From assembly GCA_015272155.1 (NCBI GenBank), contig JACYME010000076.1, positions 1 to 64,000 of the forward strand: a stretch of DNA of 64,000 nucleotides. Reading direction: 5' to 3'. This stretch comes from Leptolyngbyaceae cyanobacterium T60_A2020_046 (lineage in GTDB: Bacteria; Cyanobacteriota; Cyanobacteriia; Phormidesmidales; Phormidesmidaceae). The notes beneath the pieces are model-generated. The model ran no database searches and was not told the origin of the DNA. It saw nothing but the letters and a program-made list of their open reading frames with translations. The position numbers and the translations under genes were made by a program. Shown here one piece after another: positions 3,045 to 17,619 of this stretch (the first letter of the stretch is position 1; every line of letters starts with the position of its first letter).

Positions 3045-3129
3045 GGGAGGTAGTGAAGTCGCCGTCCCAGGGATCGCAGCCCTGAGCCCCACCTCTGAAA
3101 ACCTTTACAAAATCCCCTTTACACACCGA

Positions 3130-3157
3130 TTGAGCTTTGGTTAAGCAGAGCTATCTT
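3130..3157 (+). promoter_or_regulatory. Possible promoter of the three-gene operon
   Basis: TTGAGC (3130-3135), a 16-base spacer and TATCTT (3152-3157) resemble a weak sigma-70 promoter placed 33 bases before the likely start of the DUF559 gene. Nothing else supports it. Confidence 0.3.
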
Positions 3158-3189
3158 GGGATGAGCCATGAACCCTGGCTAGCATTGAA

Positions 3190-4476
3190 TTGACCGTGCA
3201 AGGGTGTTTCTACGTTTTGACCTTTGACCCGCAATCCACAGCGATTTCCCCAGGGAACGCTTCGCAAATCGCCCGCCTCGCCCTACACCAGTCCCAGCGG
3301 TGCCAGGCCATTCCAACGCTGTCGGTTCTACAGGGAAAAGCCATTGCGGCCCGTCAGCTGTGGATCCAGTGGTCAAAACAGACTGAGCGATTGACGGGTG
3401 TGGGGGGTTACACGTGTATCACCGCCCTCCTGGAGATTTGGCTTGCCACGATGGCGCAGCACGATAATCTGCGATCGCGGATCCTGCAAAACTTCGCCAC
3501 CCTGGCCCATCGCTCCGAAGCGGAACTGACCGACTGGTTAGTCCATACCAGCGACTACCAGCGTCAGCTGTTTTGGCAGCAGCTAGCGTCCCTCTCGGAG
3601 GACGCGGAGCGACTGCGAGCTATTCTCGACTGGCTCCCTGCCTTCCCCAGCTCAGAGCCACAAACTAAGCGACTAGCGCTGGCAGACTCCTCAACCGTGC
3701 TGGCCAGCTTTGCTGCCGTAGCGCGGCTATTTCCACCGTCTGCGGTGCCGGGGTTGTTGGTGCTGCTGCCCGAAGATGATCGAGCCGCTGTCGCCCTCAC
3801 CGCCCTCGCTCAGTTGGTAGAGGCGGTGCCGCAGATTCCGGTGGCCCTGGCGCTAACCGTAGCCCAGGTTCAGGGCTTGCTAAACGAGCTGCCCGAATCG
3901 AGAGCCAAGGCGATGCTGCGCGGTGGCCTAATCGATGTCCCCTCACCTGAACTGGGCAACATTAGACAGCGGTTGAGCGATCGCAACCTAGACGAAGAGC
4001 AGATCCAGTCTCTGCTGCACCTGGCCGAAACCCACGGCACTACCCCAGAAGCCTTGGATACGGCACTGACTCTCCTTGACCCGGCTCACCAGCCCGAGAC
4101 CGCTGAGGCAACTGAGGTTTACCGCAGCCAGGCGGAGTGGTTTTTGGCTCAGTATCTAGAGGCCAAACCAACCACCACAGGACGGTTCCAAGTGAATGCG
4201 CGGCTAGACATAGACTTTGGCGGTCGCCCGATGGAGGTGGATTTTCTAGACACAGCGGCCAAAATAGTGATCGAACTGGACGGGCACTATCACTTTCAGT
4301 GCCTCGACAACTACCGCCGCGATCGCCGTAAAGATCGGCTGTTGCAGCAGCACGGGTTTCTGGTGCTGCGCTTTCTCTCAGAAGACGTGGTCAGAGACCT
4401 CGAAGATATCCTCGATGCTGTTGACCAGGCCCTCGCGACCCGCTCTTCTTCTGTCACCCAACCTTCGGAGCCATGA
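3190..4476 (+). CDS. DUF559-domain nuclease, first gene of the three-gene system
   Basis: A 428-residue protein. Its first 310 residues are helical and match nothing I know. The last 100 residues are a DUF559/Vsr-like PD-(D/E)XK nuclease domain: V-D-F-L-D at 350-354, I-E-L-D-G-H at 361-366 (the D...ExD acidic set), then YRRDRRKDRLLQQHGF and VLRF. DUF559 proteins are thought to cut DNA in the manner of very-short-patch endonucleases; activity here is inferred. The start is uncertain: TTG 3190 is used, with GTG 3196 as an alternative and no clear ribosome site. The stop overlaps the next gene's ATG (ATGA at 4473-4476), so translation is probably coupled. HIP1 octamers occur inside the gene, which argues against a very recent import. 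Confidence 0.75.
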   Translation: MTVQGCFYVLTFDPQSTAISPGNASQIARLALHQSQRCQAIPTLSVLQGKAIAARQLWIQWSKQTERLTGVGGYTCITALLEIWLATMAQHDNLRSRILQNFATLAHRSEAELTDWLVHTSDYQRQLFWQQLASLSEDAERLRAILDWLPAFPSSEPQTKRLALADSSTVLASFAAVARLFPPSAVPGLLVLLPEDDRAAVALTALAQLVEAVPQIPVALALTVAQVQGLLNELPESRAKAMLRGGLIDVPSPELGNIRQRLSDRNLDEEQIQSLLHLAETHGTTPEALDTALTLLDPAHQPETAEATEVYRSQAEWFLAQYLEAKPTTTGRFQVNARLDIDFGGRPMEVDFLDTAAKIVIELDGHYHFQCLDNYRRDRRKDRLLQQHGFLVLRFLSEDVVRDLEDILDAVDQALATRSSSVTQPSEP

Positions 4477-5534
4477 TGCTTTCACTGCGACCCATTCCCT
4501 TGACAGACCTGCTGTTGAGTCGCCTACTCTTTGCCGATAAGAAGGGTATGACCGTCAGCGAGTTGAAGAAAGCGCTCAAGGCGATCGCCGGTAGCGAGCT
4601 ATCCAATACCGCTTACACCGAGCAAATCGAAACCACCTTGACCGGCCTCAGCGAGCAAGGCTATACCCAGCCTGTCAGCTCGTCTCGCTACCAACTGAGC
4701 AACAGTGGACGACAACACATCCTCGACGTCCTCAACCTCAAGACCCTGCCCCCCCGACTTCAGTGGAAAACCCTGAAGAATACCGACTGGATCGCCCATG
4801 CCCTCAACCTGCCCGCCCTTTCCACCGAAACCCGCAAACGGCTAGGGGAAGCCGACGGACTGCGAGCGGCCATCCTCCAGCAGGGCTTTGATCTCCCCAT
4901 TGCCCCCTTTGGCACCCTCACCCAGGCGCGTAATACCCTGCTGTGGCAAAAACTGTGCAACCCCCAAACCGCTGAAAACCTCCAGACCCAGCTCCCCGAC
5001 CTGCGGCAGCAGGCGTTTAACCAGGGCACCGTCATGGCCGCCCTGCTGAATGATTTGCTTCAAGCTCCCAAACCCCTGCCCTGGGATAAGGCGCTGTTGC
5101 AGCTGGTGGCTAAGGTCGCGCAGGCCAAGCGCACCACCCCCGATGAACTGCGCACCGCAATTTTGCGTCAAGCCCTGACCAGCAGCGTCATACCGCTACC
5201 ACTAAAACCCGATGCCTCTAACAGCACCCCCATAGCAGCCCTATCCGATGAAGCGTTTGCTGAGCTTACCCTCAACGCGGCCAAAGCAACTCAAGACGGC
5301 CGATTAGGAGATTCCAAAGTGTTTATCTCTCGGGTCTGGGCAACCTTACAGCAACAGCACCCAGACCTAGCGCTCACCCTAAAAGACTTCAAACAGCGTT
5401 TGATAACCGCTAATCAGCAGCGAAGACTTGATCTAAGTCGGGCTGACCTGGCCTACGCTCTGGACGCCAACGATGTATCGGCTTCAGAAATTAATCATCT
5501 AAACAGCACGTTTCACTTTATTCGTCTTGACTAA
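4473..5534 (+). CDS. Winged-helix-like protein, second gene of the three-gene system
   Basis: A 353-residue soluble protein. Residues about 10-80 (LTDLLLSRLLFADKKGMTV..LKKAL..LSEQGY..YQLSNSGRQHIL) read as a winged-helix fold with a beta wing. The C-terminal 90 residues (DSKVFISRVW..LTLKDFKQRLI..DLSRADLAYALDANDV..STFHFIRLD) look like a second winged-helix-type domain; I recall similar endings in uncharacterised bacterial proteins beside ATPases. The middle is helical. It has no catalytic motif, so a DNA-binding or adaptor role linking the DUF559 protein to the ATPase is inferred. It overlaps the gene before by 4 bases and lies 5 bases ahead of the next. Not assigned to a named family. Confidence 0.65.
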   Translation: MMLSLRPIPLTDLLLSRLLFADKKGMTVSELKKALKAIAGSELSNTAYTEQIETTLTGLSEQGYTQPVSSSRYQLSNSGRQHILDVLNLKTLPPRLQWKTLKNTDWIAHALNLPALSTETRKRLGEADGLRAAILQQGFDLPIAPFGTLTQARNTLLWQKLCNPQTAENLQTQLPDLRQQAFNQGTVMAALLNDLLQAPKPLPWDKALLQLVAKVAQAKRTTPDELRTAILRQALTSSVIPLPLKPDASNSTPIAALSDEAFAELTLNAAKATQDGRLGDSKVFISRVWATLQQQHPDLALTLKDFKQRLITANQQRRLDLSRADLAYALDANDVSASEINHLNSTFHFIRLD

Positions 5535-5539
5535 AGCTA

Positions 5540-8500
5540 ATGGCTATGACCACTGATCCAAGATTTGACACCTTCTGTTCTCACCAGGGACTGGATGTTT
5601 TTCATGCCGTTACCCACCAACACCAAATCTGGCAGCCCGATTTATACGACGTAGACACCATTCATCTAGAAGCCCGCTCAGCCTATGAGCGACTGCTCAA
5701 TCGAGTCGATAGTTCCGCCGCTAGCGACTCAGGCCGCATTCTGTTGCTATTGGGAGAGTCGGGAGCAGGTAAAACGCATTTGATGCGTTTTTTTCGCAAT
5801 CAAACCCACGAACAGCAGAAGGGCTTCTTTAGCTACATGCAGATGACCTCTGCGGTGTCGAACTATGCTCGGTATGTACTGAGAAATACCATTGATTCCT
5901 TCGATAAACCCTACTACGAACCCTTTGGGCCAAAAACTGGACTGATTGAGTGTTCTAACGCACTTGCCGAGCGTTCAGGCGTCGTTACGCCCAATGAACT
6001 TACTCTGCTAAAAGAAGACGATCTATCCCAGGAAGAGCTGATCGATTTAATCTACCCGATCGCCGATCGCGTGATTGCCTTAAAACAGTTTAATGGTGTC
6101 GATATTGACGTGATTCGGGCGCTGCTATACCTGCAACCCGGCCAGCCTGCGATCAGCGCTAAAGTCCTTAAACTGCTGCGATGCGAACCCTTAACCCCCT
6201 ACGACAGCAAAGTTCTAGGCGGGGTCGTTAGCCGCGATCACGATGATGATCCCCTGCGGATGCTGCGATCGTTTGCCTTGCTAATTCAAGCGCTTACCGG
6301 CGGGGCCTTTGTAGTCTGCCTAGACCAGCTTGAAGATATTCACAGCATGGATGATGCTGGACAGCGTTTCCGACGAGCTGTTCAGACCATCGTTACGTTA
6401 GCTGAGATTCCCAACGTCATCGTCGTGCTCTCCTGCCTAGAGAGCTTTTACGATCTGTTGAAACAGCATCTGCCAAAATCCCATCTTGATCGCCTAGAGC
6501 AAGATCCAACCCCCATTAGTCTTAGTGCCCGGCGTTCAGAAGATGAAGTCAGGCAAATCATCGCTCGGCGACTGCAAAATCTTTACGAATTGGCAGAGAT
6601 ATCAGTCAACAGTGACGAGACGTTATATCCCTTTCCTGACTCTATCGCTGAGAAGCTAGCGGGTCAGACAACTCGCGATGTCTTGGAATGGTGTCGCCGT
6701 CAACGAGAAAAAAGCATCACGACAGGGCAATTACCTGACCTAGATGCCCCATCTTCAGATTCTGATAATGGGTCGGAACCTCCAGAAGACTATGAGCTGA
6801 GCCAGCATTGGAACGACCACCTAGCGGGCAGCTTTGAACCTCCCGACGATGATCGCGATCTGCTACACCTCATTGGCCATAGCATCCAGCGCTGTGGGCA
6901 AGAACTAGGCCATGGTTGCCACTTTGCTACCCAAATCGATGGGGATTACCTGACTGTCAATCTGCACCTAGGGCCGAATGCCACCCAGGGCTCTTTACTA
7001 TTGAGGCTGTGTCAAAAACCCGCCAGGGGTGGTTCCCTGGCCAAACAAATTCGAGAACTTCAGCAAAATGCTGGAACCCACATTCCCGTAGCCCTACGTA
7101 CCACCGAATTTCCCAGCAATCCTCAAACAAAGATTGCCCAGCAGATTGGCAACTTTCTCAGTCAGGGAGGCCGTCGCGCCCAGGTGGCCGATTCTGACTG
7201 GCGCACCATGCTGGCGATTCAAAGCTTCGAGCAGCGGTACGGCGATCGCCCCGACTACCCCGCCTGGCTCCAGGCCGAGAAACCCCTGTCGCAACTGCCC
7301 TCGCTCCAGCGCATCTTGGATTTGGCCAACCTAAAGCTCGCCGCCGGTTCTGCGTCTAGCGGCCAGCCTCAGCAGACCCAACCAACGCCCCAGCCAAACG
7401 CCACAAAGCCTGGGGAGAATCTTCCTGAGGCGACACCACAACCAATTCCCGACCTTGGGGCTGAACCGACTTTACCCGAGCCAGCATCAGCTATTCCCCT
7501 AGGCCAAACTCGCTCCGCAGTGCCGACTCCGGTTGACCTGCCTCGGGAAGCGCTGGTGCGCCACGCCGCGTTTCTGGGGGGTTCGGGCAGCGGCAAAACC
7601 ACCCTGGCCCTGACCTTGATCGAACAACTGCTGCTGCGGGGCGTGCCCGCCGTTTTGCTCGATCGCAAGGGTGATCTGTGCAGCTACGCCAACCCCGAGG
7701 CATGGGACAAACCCACCGACGATCCTCGACTGATGGCCCACCGGCAACTGCTGCGCGATCACATCGATGTCGCGGTCTACACCCCTGGCACCCTGGACAA
7801 TGCTGGGCGACCGCTGAGCATTGCCATCACCCCGCCGGGTCTGGGGCAACTGTCTAGCGCTGAGCGGCAGCAACTGGCTAACTACTGCGCCGCCGCCCTG
7901 GGGGGAATTATGGGATACAAGTCATCGGGGCTAGATAAAATCCGGATTGCAGTTTTGGGGCAGGCGATCGCCGTGCTCAGCACGCTCCAGACCGACAATC
8001 CCCTAAGCATGGATCGGCTGATCACGTTCATTGATGAACAGGATCCACTGCTAGTGAATGCGATCGGCGTGTTAGACCCGAAGCACTGCAAAAAGCTGGC
8101 CGAAGACCTCCAAACCCTCAGCCTCATCGCCGGGCACCTCTTCAATCCCCAGTGCGAACAGCTCTCCACCGAGCAGTTGTTGGCCTCGTCTCATCCCCAG
8201 AAGACCCGTCTATCAATAATTAACTTGGGCAGCTTGGGCGATAACGCCAACATTCTATTTTGGGTATCGCAGTTTTTGCTCAACCTCAACCGCTATGCCC
8301 AGCGGCACCCGTCTGGCCAGCTTCAGGCAGTGGTGTTGTTCGACGAGGCCGATCTGTACCTGCCCGCTCAGGGCAAACCCTCCACCAAAGAGCTGATGGA
8401 AAGTTTGCTGAAACGCGCCCGCTCCGCTGGACTGGGCATTCTGCTCGCCACCCAAAGCCCCGGCGATTTGGACTATAAGTGTCGAGATCAAATCTCCTCC

Positions 8501-8731
8501 TGGTTTGTCGGCAAGGTGAAGGAAGAAACTGCCCTCAAAAAGCTGAAGCCCATGCTCAGCGAAGCTAAGACCGACGTAACCAGTAAGCTGGCCAACCAAC
8601 AGGTTGGTGAGTTCTTCGCGATCCGCGCGGGAGAGGTCACTAGCTTAAGGGCGAATTTGTCCTTGATTCAAGCGGAGCAGGTACCGCTTGAGCTGGTGCA
8701 AGCATTAGCAGCCAGTGTGGTTAACCAATAG
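5540..8731 (+). CDS. Double ATPase: AAA+ module fused to HerA/DUF87-like module
   Basis: A 1063-residue protein with two unrelated ATPase modules. The first (about 1-400) has Walker A GESGAGKT at 72-79, Walker B FVVCLDQLED at 257-266 and an Orc/STAND-like continuation through DVLEWCRRQR. A divergent domain of about 200 residues and a Pro/Gln-rich linker follow. The second (about 660-1063) has Walker A GGSGSGKT at 680-687, DRKGDL, Walker B VVLFDEADL (Asp935, Glu936) and the LLATQSPGD motif typical of HerA/FtsK-like DNA translocases. It ends the operon. By analogy with HerA partners of nucleases, it may load and pump DNA for the DUF559 protein; that is inference. ATG 5546 is an alternative start. 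Confidence 0.8.
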   Translation: MAMTTDPRFDTFCSHQGLDVFHAVTHQHQIWQPDLYDVDTIHLEARSAYERLLNRVDSSAASDSGRILLLLGESGAGKTHLMRFFRNQTHEQQKGFFSYMQMTSAVSNYARYVLRNTIDSFDKPYYEPFGPKTGLIECSNALAERSGVVTPNELTLLKEDDLSQEELIDLIYPIADRVIALKQFNGVDIDVIRALLYLQPGQPAISAKVLKLLRCEPLTPYDSKVLGGVVSRDHDDDPLRMLRSFALLIQALTGGAFVVCLDQLEDIHSMDDAGQRFRRAVQTIVTLAEIPNVIVVLSCLESFYDLLKQHLPKSHLDRLEQDPTPISLSARRSEDEVRQIIARRLQNLYELAEISVNSDETLYPFPDSIAEKLAGQTTRDVLEWCRRQREKSITTGQLPDLDAPSSDSDNGSEPPEDYELSQHWNDHLAGSFEPPDDDRDLLHLIGHSIQRCGQELGHGCHFATQIDGDYLTVNLHLGPNATQGSLLLRLCQKPARGGSLAKQIRELQQNAGTHIPVALRTTEFPSNPQTKIAQQIGNFLSQGGRRAQVADSDWRTMLAIQSFEQRYGDRPDYPAWLQAEKPLSQLPSLQRILDLANLKLAAGSASSGQPQQTQPTPQPNATKPGENLPEATPQPIPDLGAEPTLPEPASAIPLGQTRSAVPTPVDLPREALVRHAAFLGGSGSGKTTLALTLIEQLLLRGVPAVLLDRKGDLCSYANPEAWDKPTDDPRLMAHRQLLRDHIDVAVYTPGTLDNAGRPLSIAITPPGLGQLSSAERQQLANYCAAALGGIMGYKSSGLDKIRIAVLGQAIAVLSTLQTDNPLSMDRLITFIDEQDPLLVNAIGVLDPKHCKKLAEDLQTLSLIAGHLFNPQCEQLSTEQLLASSHPQKTRLSIINLGSLGDNANILFWVSQFLLNLNRYAQRHPSGQLQAVVLFDEADLYLPAQGKPSTKELMESLLKRARSAGLGILLATQSPGDLDYKCRDQISSWFVGKVKEETALKKLKPMLSEAKTDVTSKLANQQVGEFFAIRAGEVTSLRANLSLIQAEQVPLELVQALAASVVNQ

Positions 8732-12106: not shown

Positions 12107-12841
12107 ATGGGCACCTGGATTAAAGAGACCGATAAAGCCATCTATTTGATGCAAGGCGGCTATTGGATTTCACGCATCTCCAAATATCCGTCCAGAACCA
12201 ATCCTGCCGAAAAGGTTCTCAACATCACAGGACTGCAATCTTGGTTCACCCGGCCCGACGCCCCGCGCGCCATGATGGTTTCCCCCAACGGGCCAGAGCC
12301 GCCGCAAATGCCACCGCCACCGCCCATCCCCACCCCACCGCCACCCCCACCGCCCCCCGCACCGCCCACCTCCCCAACTGGCCAGATCAACGCAGACGGT
12401 CTGCTGCTGATCAAAACCTTTGAAGGTTGTGAGCTACGCGCCTATCAAGATTCTGTAGGGGTGTGGACCATTGGCTACGGCCACACCTCAATGGCGGGGC
12501 CGCCCACCGTCACCCCCGGCATGACCATCACCGAAGCGGAAGCAGAAGCCATTTTGCGCCGCGACCTAGGCAAGTTTGAGGCGGGCGTGCGCGATTTGGT
12601 GAAGGTTCCCCTCAACAGCAACCAGTTTTCAGCGCTGGTGTCCTTTAGCTTTAACGTTGGGCTGGGGGCCCTGGGGGGCTCGACGATGTTGCGCAAGCTC
12701 AACGCGGGCGACTATGCCGGGGCCGCGAATGAGTTTCCGCGCTGGGTTCGGGCGGGTGGACAAACGCTGCCGGGGTTGGTACGACGTCGCAATGCTGAGC
12801 AAGCGCTCTTTCTGAGCCGGAATTTCCGACAATTTCTCTAA
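12107..12841 (+). CDS. GH24 lysozyme (endolysin-like) with proline linker
   Basis: A 244-residue protein. Residues 1-60 form a small module (WIKETDKAIYLMQGGYWIS..LQSWF) that I associate with cyanobacterial peptidoglycan or surface proteins. Residues 63-90 are a Pro-rich linker. Residues 95-244 are a T4-lysozyme-like GH24 muramidase with the catalytic spacing E106-8-D115-5-T121 (FEG..YQDSVGVWTIGYGHT), identical to Glu11/Asp20/Thr26 of T4 lysozyme. No signal peptide is visible. GGGAG 7 bases before the ATG supports the start. No holin, spanin or other phage gene lies nearby, so it may serve cell-wall turnover or antagonism rather than phage lysis (inference). Confidence 0.88.
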   Translation: MGTWIKETDKAIYLMQGGYWISRISKYPSRTNPAEKVLNITGLQSWFTRPDAPRAMMVSPNGPEPPQMPPPPPIPTPPPPPPPPAPPTSPTGQINADGLLLIKTFEGCELRAYQDSVGVWTIGYGHTSMAGPPTVTPGMTITEAEAEAILRRDLGKFEAGVRDLVKVPLNSNQFSALVSFSFNVGLGALGGSTMLRKLNAGDYAGAANEFPRWVRAGGQTLPGLVRRRNAEQALFLSRNFRQFL

Positions 12842-14778: not shown

Positions 14779-17619
14779 TCAGTTACCCGACAGATCCGTC
14801 TCTTGTTCAAGCTGACGCAATACGGTTTCAAGCTGGCGCTGGGCGCGACCGTAGGCTTCCCAATCGCCTTGTTGGAGAGCTTGTTGCCCCGCCTCATAGG
14901 CATCGAGGGCAGCTTGCACCCGCGTAACGAGCCCTGGCGGAGGTGTGGTTGTCACTGAATCGCTCTCATCCGATGATGCAGGTTCTGGTGTCGTCGCCGG
15001 GCGATCGCCAAAAATACGATTCAGCGCCGCATCCAGGGTGGGCTCCATCGCCACCTGATTGTCATAAACTGCAATGACGCGCCGCAGTTCAGGCAGGGCT
15101 CCCTGTTCTGCCCGTAAATACACAGGCTCCACATAAAGCAGCGATCGCTCAATGGGGATCACCATCATGTCGCCCCGAATCACCCGCGATCCCTCCTGAC
15201 TCCAGAGGGTGAGTTGTTCAGAAATTTCCGGCGTTTGGTTAATGCGCGCCTCAATCTGGCTGGGGCCAAAGACCAACTGTTGCTTCGGAAATTCGTACAG
15301 CAAAAGCCGACCATAGCGATCGCCATCCGATCGGCCCGCCATCCACGCCACCATATTGTCGCGGTTCAGCGGCGTAAACGGCAGGATTTGAATGAACTCC
15401 TCCTGCTCCGCCTCTGGCAAACGCATGATGACGTAATAGGGCTCCATCAACACCGGGCTACCTTCATAAATCTGCATCGGAAAGCGCCACACATCCTCAC
15501 GGTTGTAAAACACCTCCGGGTTCTCCATGTGATAAACCCGGTACATCTGCGCCTGCACCTTAAACAAATCATAGGGATAACGAAAATGGGCCGCCAAATC
15601 CTCAGGTGCAGCATTCCGGGAGAGAAACAACGCCGGGAAAATCTTGCGGTAGGTCGCCAAAATCGGATCCGTCTCGTCTACCCCATAAAACTGCACGGTG
15701 CCATCGTAGGCATCGATCACAACCTTGGCCGCGTCGCGCAAATAATTCGCCCCACTGCGGGCCAGCCCTGCAATCACCGGGCTGTTCAGAATTGCCTGCA
15801 CATCGCCGCTGCGACCCAGTGGTTCGGAATAGGGGTAGCGGTTTGTCGTTGTGTATGCATCAAGGATCCATTTCAGCCGACCATTCACAATCGCGATATA
15901 GGGATCATCGTCATAGGTCAAAAACGGCGCAATGTGACGCGCCCGCTCCACAACTTGGCGATAGTAGTGGATGCGCGAGTCGCGTGAAAAATAATTGGAG
16001 ATCAGGATCTTGAAACTGCCGAGATCATAGGCATAGGCCAATCGCTGCCAGAATGATCCCATTGGTACACCCCCAGCCCCGCTGTAGCGATTGGCGGCAT
16101 TATTATCCCCGTCAGGATAGTCAAACTCATCGGTTTCTGTGCCTGTAAATACATAGGATCGGGTCGCTTCGCCATAGTAAAGACGGGGCTCCTCAATGTC
16201 TAAATCCACACTGGAAACTGGTGGCACATTTTGGATTAATAGCCGTGGCAAGCCATCGGGGGTCACCTCATTGACCGGACTCATGACCACGCCATAGCCG
16301 TGGGTAAATTTCAGTCGCTGGTTTACCCACGTTTGGGCTTCGGGTGAAGCTTGGGTGTAATCCATTTCGCGAGCTGCGATCACCACCTGTCGGTAGTCGC
16401 CGTTGAGGACGTAGCGATCGATATCCACATCTCCAAAGCTGTAATACAGGCGGATTTCCTGAAGCTGCTGGTAGGTGCTCAATATAGGCCGATAGTCCCA
16501 CAGGCGAATGTTGTCGATGGTGGGTGCATTGCGGGTGAGGGCGGCGCGATCGAGATTGCTCTCAGCAGGGAAATCCGAGCTTTCGACATCTGCTAAGTCG
16601 TAGGCTGCGCGGGTAAAGGCAAGATTAGATTCAATGAAGGGCCGTTCTTTGGTCAACTCATTGGGCTCAACCACCAGTTTTTGCTGTAACCAGGGATAAA
16701 TCCCATTCACCCCAATCAGCACCACGATGTAGAAGCCGATGCCCACGATAGGCAGCAAAAAACCACTACGCCAGAGGGAGAGGATAAAGAGTGCTGCTAC
16801 CGCTAGCGTCACGAAGGCCATCGTCCAATAGGCGTGGAGGTTGGCATGAACGTCGGTATAGCCTGCGCCAAAGACGACTCCTGTGGGCGAAAAGAGCAGC
16901 TCGTATCGCTCTAGGTAAAACCCGGCAGAAATGACGAGGGCAAGTCCTGCTAAGAGCAGGCACAGATGGGTTTTGACTTCTCCAGTGAGGAAGTATTTCC
17001 AGCCGCGCTCGGGCCGAATTTCGCCTTTCAGGGCATAGACGCCAATGGAGAGCACGATCGCCCAAATCAACAATTCCGCACAATTGCCCTGCAAGCCCCG
17101 ATAAAGGGGCAGGCGAAACAGATAAAAGCTGATGTCTTCTTGAAAGATGGGGTCTGGAGTATCAAAAGCCGTGGGATTGAGGAATTTGAGCACTGTATCC
17201 CAAGCGGCTGCGCCATTCACGGCAGCATTGAGGGACAGCAGCATAGTGAAGGCGATCGCGAGATACTGTGGCAGGGTATTGGCCACGCCAGCAAGGTTAC
17301 TGCCCTCAAGTACGCGCCAAGGTGCATCGCGGGTCAATCTCAGAGCGAGGCGATAGTTGCCATAGAGAAATGCACTGTAGAACAGGCCAGTCACCACCCA
17401 AATGCCGCTCTGCCAGCGGATGCGTGTCCAAAACACGCTGGGATAGCCCACTGCGCGAAACCACCACGACTCGGTGAGCAGGTGGACGATCGCCCCAGAG
17501 AGGGCCAAAATCAGCAACGCTGCGATCGCGAGCCACAGGATCATCGGGGGACGACGCCCCATCCACAACACAGCACGTTTCACCACGGAAGACACAGACG
17601 GGCAACACAACACATTCAC
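14779..17619 (-). CDS. UPF0182 family membrane protein
   Basis: A large membrane protein, 946 residues, of the COG1615/UPF0182 family found in cyanobacteria and actinobacteria; function unknown. About seven hydrophobic segments occupy the first 310 residues (first at about 27-45). A long soluble, probably extracytoplasmic region follows with family blocks such as TRAAYDLADVE, VMSPVNEVT, PRLYYGE and VNGRLKWILDAYTTT, ending in a Gln/Glu-rich helix. Possible starts are ATG 17619, used here, or the Met at residue 20 or 26, which lies just before the first membrane segment. The N-terminal 19 residues look non-native, so the shorter form is plausible. Confidence 0.9.
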   Translation of the reverse strand: MNVLCCPSVSSVVKRAVLWMGRRPPMILWLAIAALLILALSGAIVHLLTESWWFRAVGYPSVFWTRIRWQSGIWVVTGLFYSAFLYGNYRLALRLTRDAPWRVLEGSNLAGVANTLPQYLAIAFTMLLSLNAAVNGAAAWDTVLKFLNPTAFDTPDPIFQEDISFYLFRLPLYRGLQGNCAELLIWAIVLSIGVYALKGEIRPERGWKYFLTGEVKTHLCLLLAGLALVISAGFYLERYELLFSPTGVVFGAGYTDVHANLHAYWTMAFVTLAVAALFILSLWRSGFLLPIVGIGFYIVVLIGVNGIYPWLQQKLVVEPNELTKERPFIESNLAFTRAAYDLADVESSDFPAESNLDRAALTRNAPTIDNIRLWDYRPILSTYQQLQEIRLYYSFGDVDIDRYVLNGDYRQVVIAAREMDYTQASPEAQTWVNQRLKFTHGYGVVMSPVNEVTPDGLPRLLIQNVPPVSSVDLDIEEPRLYYGEATRSYVFTGTETDEFDYPDGDNNAANRYSGAGGVPMGSFWQRLAYAYDLGSFKILISNYFSRDSRIHYYRQVVERARHIAPFLTYDDDPYIAIVNGRLKWILDAYTTTNRYPYSEPLGRSGDVQAILNSPVIAGLARSGANYLRDAAKVVIDAYDGTVQFYGVDETDPILATYRKIFPALFLSRNAAPEDLAAHFRYPYDLFKVQAQMYRVYHMENPEVFYNREDVWRFPMQIYEGSPVLMEPYYVIMRLPEAEQEEFIQILPFTPLNRDNMVAWMAGRSDGDRYGRLLLYEFPKQQLVFGPSQIEARINQTPEISEQLTLWSQEGSRVIRGDMMVIPIERSLLYVEPVYLRAEQGALPELRRVIAVYDNQVAMEPTLDAALNRIFGDRPATTPEPASSDESDSVTTTPPPGLVTRVQAALDAYEAGQQALQQGDWEAYGRAQRQLETVLRQLEQETDLSGN

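Follow-up and report, generated by a model that had tools for sequence, protein, structure and literature searches.

The closest described relatives of the locus analysed here are the mobile 'HerA/FtsK capture' neighbourhoods, which Rakesh, Aravind and Krishnan predicted in 2024 by computation only (PMC10853773). The parts of these neighbourhoods are an Orc/CDC6 ATPase, an inactive restriction endonuclease (iREase), an active restriction endonuclease (REase) of two families (one of them AbiJ-type), a HerA/FtsK ATPase and a winged helix-turn-helix (wHTH) domain; the iREase is inserted between the AAA+ core and a C-terminal wHTH, and the domains may be fused (PMC10853773). The locus to be compared with them is a three-gene operon, A-B-C, in Leptolyngbyaceae cyanobacterium T60_A2020_046 (contig JACYME010000076.1, positions 1 to 64,000; this whole stretch of 64,000 nucleotides is called the window below). 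By its sequence features, the trio fits a DUF559 version of the predicted class coupled to Orc/CDC6 ATPases. Like that class it combines an Orc/CDC6 AAA+ module and a putative HerA/FtsK pump (both in C), an active-looking nuclease (A) and a wHTH (B, by predicted structure) in a mobile block. It differs in that its nuclease belongs to DUF559/EDxHD, a family never mentioned in the text of Rakesh et al. (PMC10853773), in that an iREase and a C-terminal wHTH are not demonstrated inside C (no wHTH was recognised after its middle domain), and in that PADLOC has no matching model. A full-text literature search with DUF559 and 'defense system' gave no DUF559 version of such a system among the titles and abstracts of its hits.

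The first-pass annotation of the window, made from the DNA letters, had proposed the trio as an undescribed defence system. This was right insofar as PADLOC 2.0 has no model for full-length A, for B, or for C outside its ATPase modules, but the class had already been foreseen as 'HerA/FtsK capture systems' (PMC10853773). The HerA-plus-nuclease logic that it invoked was sound. DndFGH has the same three-gene logic of nuclease, wHTH and HerA/FtsK without a modification gene; however, the trio lacks the DndF kinase, a match to the triple-wHTH DndG and the eight-domain DndH, and only the HerA module is alike (in PADLOC, DndH matches C at 5e-5, and the DndF and DndH models match no more than short P-loop and HerA stretches). 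The best PADLOC match to the HerA module of C is mad8 of MADS (1.4e-22), but this match leaves the AAA+ and middle domains of C uncovered, A and B match no mad model, and the trio has no methylase or other mad gene. HerA-SIR2, HerA-DUF4297 and HerA-NurA also pair a HerA-type ring motor with a partner enzyme, whereas here the partner is DUF559, the motor is fused to an Orc/Cdc6 AAA+ module and a third, wHTH subunit is present. BREX-Related Capture (BRC; Rakesh and Krishnan 2026, PMC12839542) shares with the trio an AAA+ module, HerA, a winged-helix protein and a nuclease, but the trio is without PglZ, DUF6079, DUF4007, GNAT and TGT, and none of the BREX/BRC markers PglZ, BrxC/DUF6079 and DUF4007 was found among its genes.

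The three open reading frames lie where the annotation placed them, at 3190-4476, 4473-5534 and 5540-8731, all on the + strand. Its 4-base A/B overlap is right if B begins at 4473; its 5-base gap between B and C applies when counted from the first ATG of C, whereas conservation among orthologues puts the start of C near 5546 and widens the gap to 11 bases. Among the trio loci, A-B gaps are at most 16 bases and overlaps are frequent. The start of A at 3190 is probably too early, as orthologues align from a TTG at 3217.

Whether the trio recurs in unrelated genomes had been suggested as a test, and it does. With C as bait, the same A-B-C order was found in Nodosilinea, other cyanobacteria, a Nitrosomonas metagenome-assembled genome (L040) and Pyxidicoccus (L042). 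A search with B matched 64 of 195 Myxococcota genomes; in the 20 Myxococcota loci sampled, C adjoins B in every case and A is present in 17. A distant clade, clade 2, has the trio in the same order at 20-30% identity in Tsukamurella (L080), Methylobacterium (L081) and cyanobacterium G215 (L102). Because the same trio recurs in the same order across phyla, the association goes beyond chance. Judged by their sequences, A, B and C diverge in step and the trio travels together; over 25 loci their pairwise distances correlate with Mantel r of 0.98, 0.97 and 0.97 (0 of 999 permutations). The operon is also thinly spread: B occurs in 8 of 65 genomes and 4 of 14 genera of the window host's family, and, of 399 genomes sampled from the Nitrosomonas phylum, 3 match C along most of its length, the source of the query being one of them. 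In the tree of C, the cyanobacterial set forms one clade with Nitrosomonas as sister.

Gene A (3217-4476, + strand, 419 amino acids from the TTG) consists of an N-terminal region of about 300 amino acids without an assigned family and a C-terminal DUF559/EDxHD nuclease domain (Pfam E 5.4e-12, residues about 340-415 of the long form), in agreement with the nuclease domain first proposed. The nearest PDB structures to the A profile are 3hrl (3.7e-10) and the EDxHD homing endonuclease 3r3p (7.8e-4), and the catalytic E, D, ExD, H, D pattern of the DUF559/EDxHD superfamily is present. Columns S304, E307, D342, E353, D355, G356, H359, D369 and D373 (numbered from the start at 3217) are invariant in 24 orthologues from both clades, which indicates that the active site is under selection. 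The N-terminal 300 residues are the quickest-evolving part of the trio, the linker of C excepted, with 18-24% identity to Nitrosomonas and Pyxidicoccus versus 49% for the nuclease domain. The idea that A is a homologue of C was rejected (hhalign probability 0.1).

Gene B (4473-5534, + strand, 352-353 amino acids) matched no Pfam family, and a PDB sequence search with a small B profile gave no match. An AlphaFold2 model from a 10-row alignment (predicted local distance difference test score, pLDDT, 80.6) begins with a winged helix (residues 1-90), continues with helices and ends in a winged-helix-like domain. Foldseek with this model returned short wHTH matches only, with E-values that were not significant, and an enlarged B profile matched DtxR winged helices weakly (E 0.04). 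The B proteins of clade 2 are shorter and have a C-terminal domain in common with main-clade B (hhalign E 1.6e-5, probability 79). The earlier label of putative winged-helix adaptor holds for the winged helix predicted at each end; B is likely, on its modelled fold, to be a DNA-binding wHTH adaptor.

Gene C (5546-8731, + strand, 1061 amino acids) carries two different ATPase modules, as had been recognised, with Pfam matches to AAA_16/AAA_22 and DUF87/HerA at E 1e-8 to 1e-12. The Orc1/Cdc6-like AAA+ module (5660-6724, residues about 41-395) has the Walker A motif GESGAGKTH and the Walker B region CLDQLED, and also scores with novel-STAND models. A middle domain (6791-7345, residues 418-602) and a variable linker follow, and then the HerA/TrwB-type ATPase (7535-8689, residues about 666-1050; DUF87 3.9e-10, HerA_C 1.4e-8) with Walker A GGSGSGKTT, Walker B LFDEAD, the sensor ATQSP and the segment RARSAG. 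Among the main-clade proteins compared, both ATPases retain Walker A and B together with the sensor glutamine and the arginine segment, and the clade-2 proteins retain the Walker motifs too. When a structure model of C (pLDDT 67.6) was searched with Foldseek, the N-terminal module matched Cdc6/Orc1 (2qby, E 2.9e-4; 1fnn, 5.9e-4) and the C-terminal module matched HerA, TrwB and the antiphage SIR2-HerA; TnsC and RdrA were also among the matches of C. The middle domain has no recognisable active site and gave no usable sequence match against Pfam and PDB profiles; its predicted strand order, a-bbb-a-b-a-b-a, is that of the restriction-endonuclease core.

Within the cyanobacteria, the comparisons indicate horizontal transfer of the operon, because C of the window is 90% identical to Nodosilinea while the window's flanking fructosamine kinase and Ppx genes reach only 70% and 72-74% identity to those genomes, because the loci compared occupy non-homologous sites with no flanking genes in common, and because two Nodosilinea share a single 6.3-kb block (94.0% identical; L033 7109-13416, L034 7111-13431) within unrelated flanks. 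On its right, the Nodosilinea block is bordered by the 3' half of a sequence like tRNA-Pro(CGG) (L033 13390, L034 13405), an edge also present in L032 (4449); the anticodon is our own reading, and ARAGORN finds no whole tRNA at the block edge. This half-tRNA downstream of C resembles an att border, for which a left partner was sought and none found. The remnant L043 breaks off inside the same edge. L043 and L041 are decayed copies, and they show that the operon is also lost; Nodosilinea LEGE 07088 has one copy split over contigs (L035/L135) and one internally deleted remnant of C (L043). Beside the window's fructosamine-kinase gene, an empty site was sought, but the left side differs in every relative and no clean one was found. 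The window and the Nodosilinea block have in common only the trio (86% at the DNA level) and a 52-nucleotide element upstream (3116-3167, + strand) that is conserved at 86-88% between the window and Nodosilinea loci. This element is likely to be promoter or other regulatory DNA, to judge from its conservation, and a search for a sigma-70 consensus in it found none. Carriage by phages was rejected as an origin (C had no match in 50,697 phage records, and B had no confirmed relative on viral contigs), as was a plasmid-borne origin of B, for which no plasmid homologue was found. The clade-2 trio of Tsukamurella, in a record labelled as a plasmid, lies with a VapBC pair between rplN and rpsQ (L080 1830-17125) and so splits a ribosomal-protein cluster.

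We favour, with moderate confidence, the interpretation that A-B-C works on DNA as an anti-invader machine and belongs to the 'HerA/FtsK capture' type. In such a machine, A, B and C would form a complex directed at foreign DNA. C may assemble as a ring, with its Orc1/Cdc6-like AAA+ module loading on or sensing DNA and its HerA-type module pumping DNA. The role of B, which has a winged helix at either end, would be to bind DNA, to link C with A, or both, and A would cut the captured DNA through its DUF559 domain. Candidate recognition parts are the fast-evolving N-terminus of A and the N-terminal winged helix of B. The prediction of Rakesh et al. would thereby take the form of a compact unit of three genes whose nuclease is clear, whose boundaries are precise in Nodosilinea and which has myxobacterial orthologues. 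A bolder version, which we regard as possible but doubtful, is that the trio is a widespread immune machine in its own right, in which a DNA pump independent of modification works with an EDxHD nuclease; it would be mobile in cyanobacteria and part of the core genome in a large myxobacterial group, and its B-C core could be used with other effectors. The unit includes no modification gene, and if the trio does restrict DNA, one must ask how pumps of this kind distinguish self from foreign DNA.

Several observations weigh against a capture-type defence role. In two myxobacterial runs (G464-G489 and G504-G529) B is present in 52 of 52 genomes, which is unusual for defence. Ten loci (L042, L082-L088, L090 and L100, nearly all from the second run) have flanking genes in common, and so in those myxobacteria the locus is inherited vertically. 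Such fixation is compatible with domestication of a defence system and with a cellular role alike; if real, the entry of a defence-like operon into a core genome would be unusual. Since several lineages keep B-C without a DUF559 gene alongside (L097, L098, L099, L106, L107, L113 and L114), the nuclease is not an invariable part of the unit; the ATPase genes of these pairs are intact, and the presence of A beside B-C has changed at least twice on the tree. The middle domain of C is consistent with the iREase of Rakesh et al. by its predicted strand order only. Finally, the argument from a defence island in the first-pass annotation did not hold up: the neighbours in the window are ordinary genes, those at most trio loci are housekeeping genes, and PADLOC matches are not clearly more frequent among 106 proteins pooled from the flanks than among 85 control proteins. 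Only some loci adjoin defence genes.

The alternative that survives best, though we consider it unlikely, is a cellular machine for DNA repair or genome maintenance analogous to HerA-NurA end resection, in which C would pump broken or stalled DNA to A and which would be fixed in myxobacteria and occasionally transferred. The complete presence of B in the two myxobacterial runs, the synteny of the sampled second-run loci and the housekeeping neighbours would all suit it, and HerA partners NurA in archaeal end resection (PMC12977600). In cyanobacteria, however, the operon is rare, patchy, mobile and in places degraded; A belongs to the DUF559 family rather than NurA, no conserved repair genes lie alongside the trio, and the HerA module of C is preceded by a variable linker and not by a recognised HerA barrel domain. 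Less probable again is abortive infection, in which C and B would sense invasion through a STAND-like AAA+ module and release A, whose nuclease would destroy the cell's own DNA. A pumping HerA motor would be superfluous for suicide, B-C pairs occur without A, and no conserved immunity or antitoxin gene is present, even though AAA_16 and novel-STAND models both hit the AAA+ module, the Foldseek matches include RdrA and A has a separate, fast-evolving N-terminal region. That the trio serves a mobile element for its own transfer or maintenance, as a TrwB-like coupling protein with a nuclease and no part in host defence, is very improbable: the HerA module does resemble TrwB and the Nodosilinea block, bordered by a tRNA-Pro 3' end, moves as one piece, but that block has no integrase, relaxase or mating-pair gene, homologues are lacking on plasmids and confirmed viral contigs (B) and in phages (C), and the chromosomal location is fixed in one myxobacterial group.

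Upstream of the operon, the first-pass annotation had described a broken toxin-antitoxin pair and a transposase relic. The antitoxin part was borne out by a UPF0175 fragment at 2640-2873 on the - strand (Pfam E 1.2e-13), but Pfam searches with the presumed PIN toxin piece (2313-2624) and the presumed transposase piece (1756-1980) gave no match. Among the loci that do adjoin defence genes, L037 lies next to Type-2 BREX (PglW, BrxL), L035 next to PDC-S46, and L097/L103 next to three CBASS-type cyclases and an E1-like gene. About 0.5 kb downstream of the trio in L033 (13736-17528; G297 contig C293 37886-41675) there are a CRISPR array with five repeats, a Cas12k-like gene (a single flank protein, placed at 14969-16822 by its position) and a divergent MerR-type regulator. 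Cargo of a CRISPR-associated transposon was considered for this trio and not established, as the contig has no recognised tns genes; TniQ lies on another contig.

In one cyanobacterial sublineage, a protein of 199-205 amino acids (X) and an N6/N4 DNA methylase (PF01555, E 3.6e-44) are encoded upstream of A (L138 9994-11660, L038 4277-7530); as a lead, these two genes may bear on self/non-self discrimination. Homologues of X (34-38%) are found in other cyanobacteria (L139-L145) directly upstream of one or two Orc/Cdc6-like AAA proteins of about 690 amino acids, at some loci with a third gene that resembles a DEDD exonuclease, and these may be a separate operon. Elsewhere in the window, positions 12107-12838 encode a proline-rich linker followed by a phage-type lysozyme domain (PF00959, 1.3e-52), and in some relatives a lysozyme gene like this one adjoins an M16 peptidase gene.

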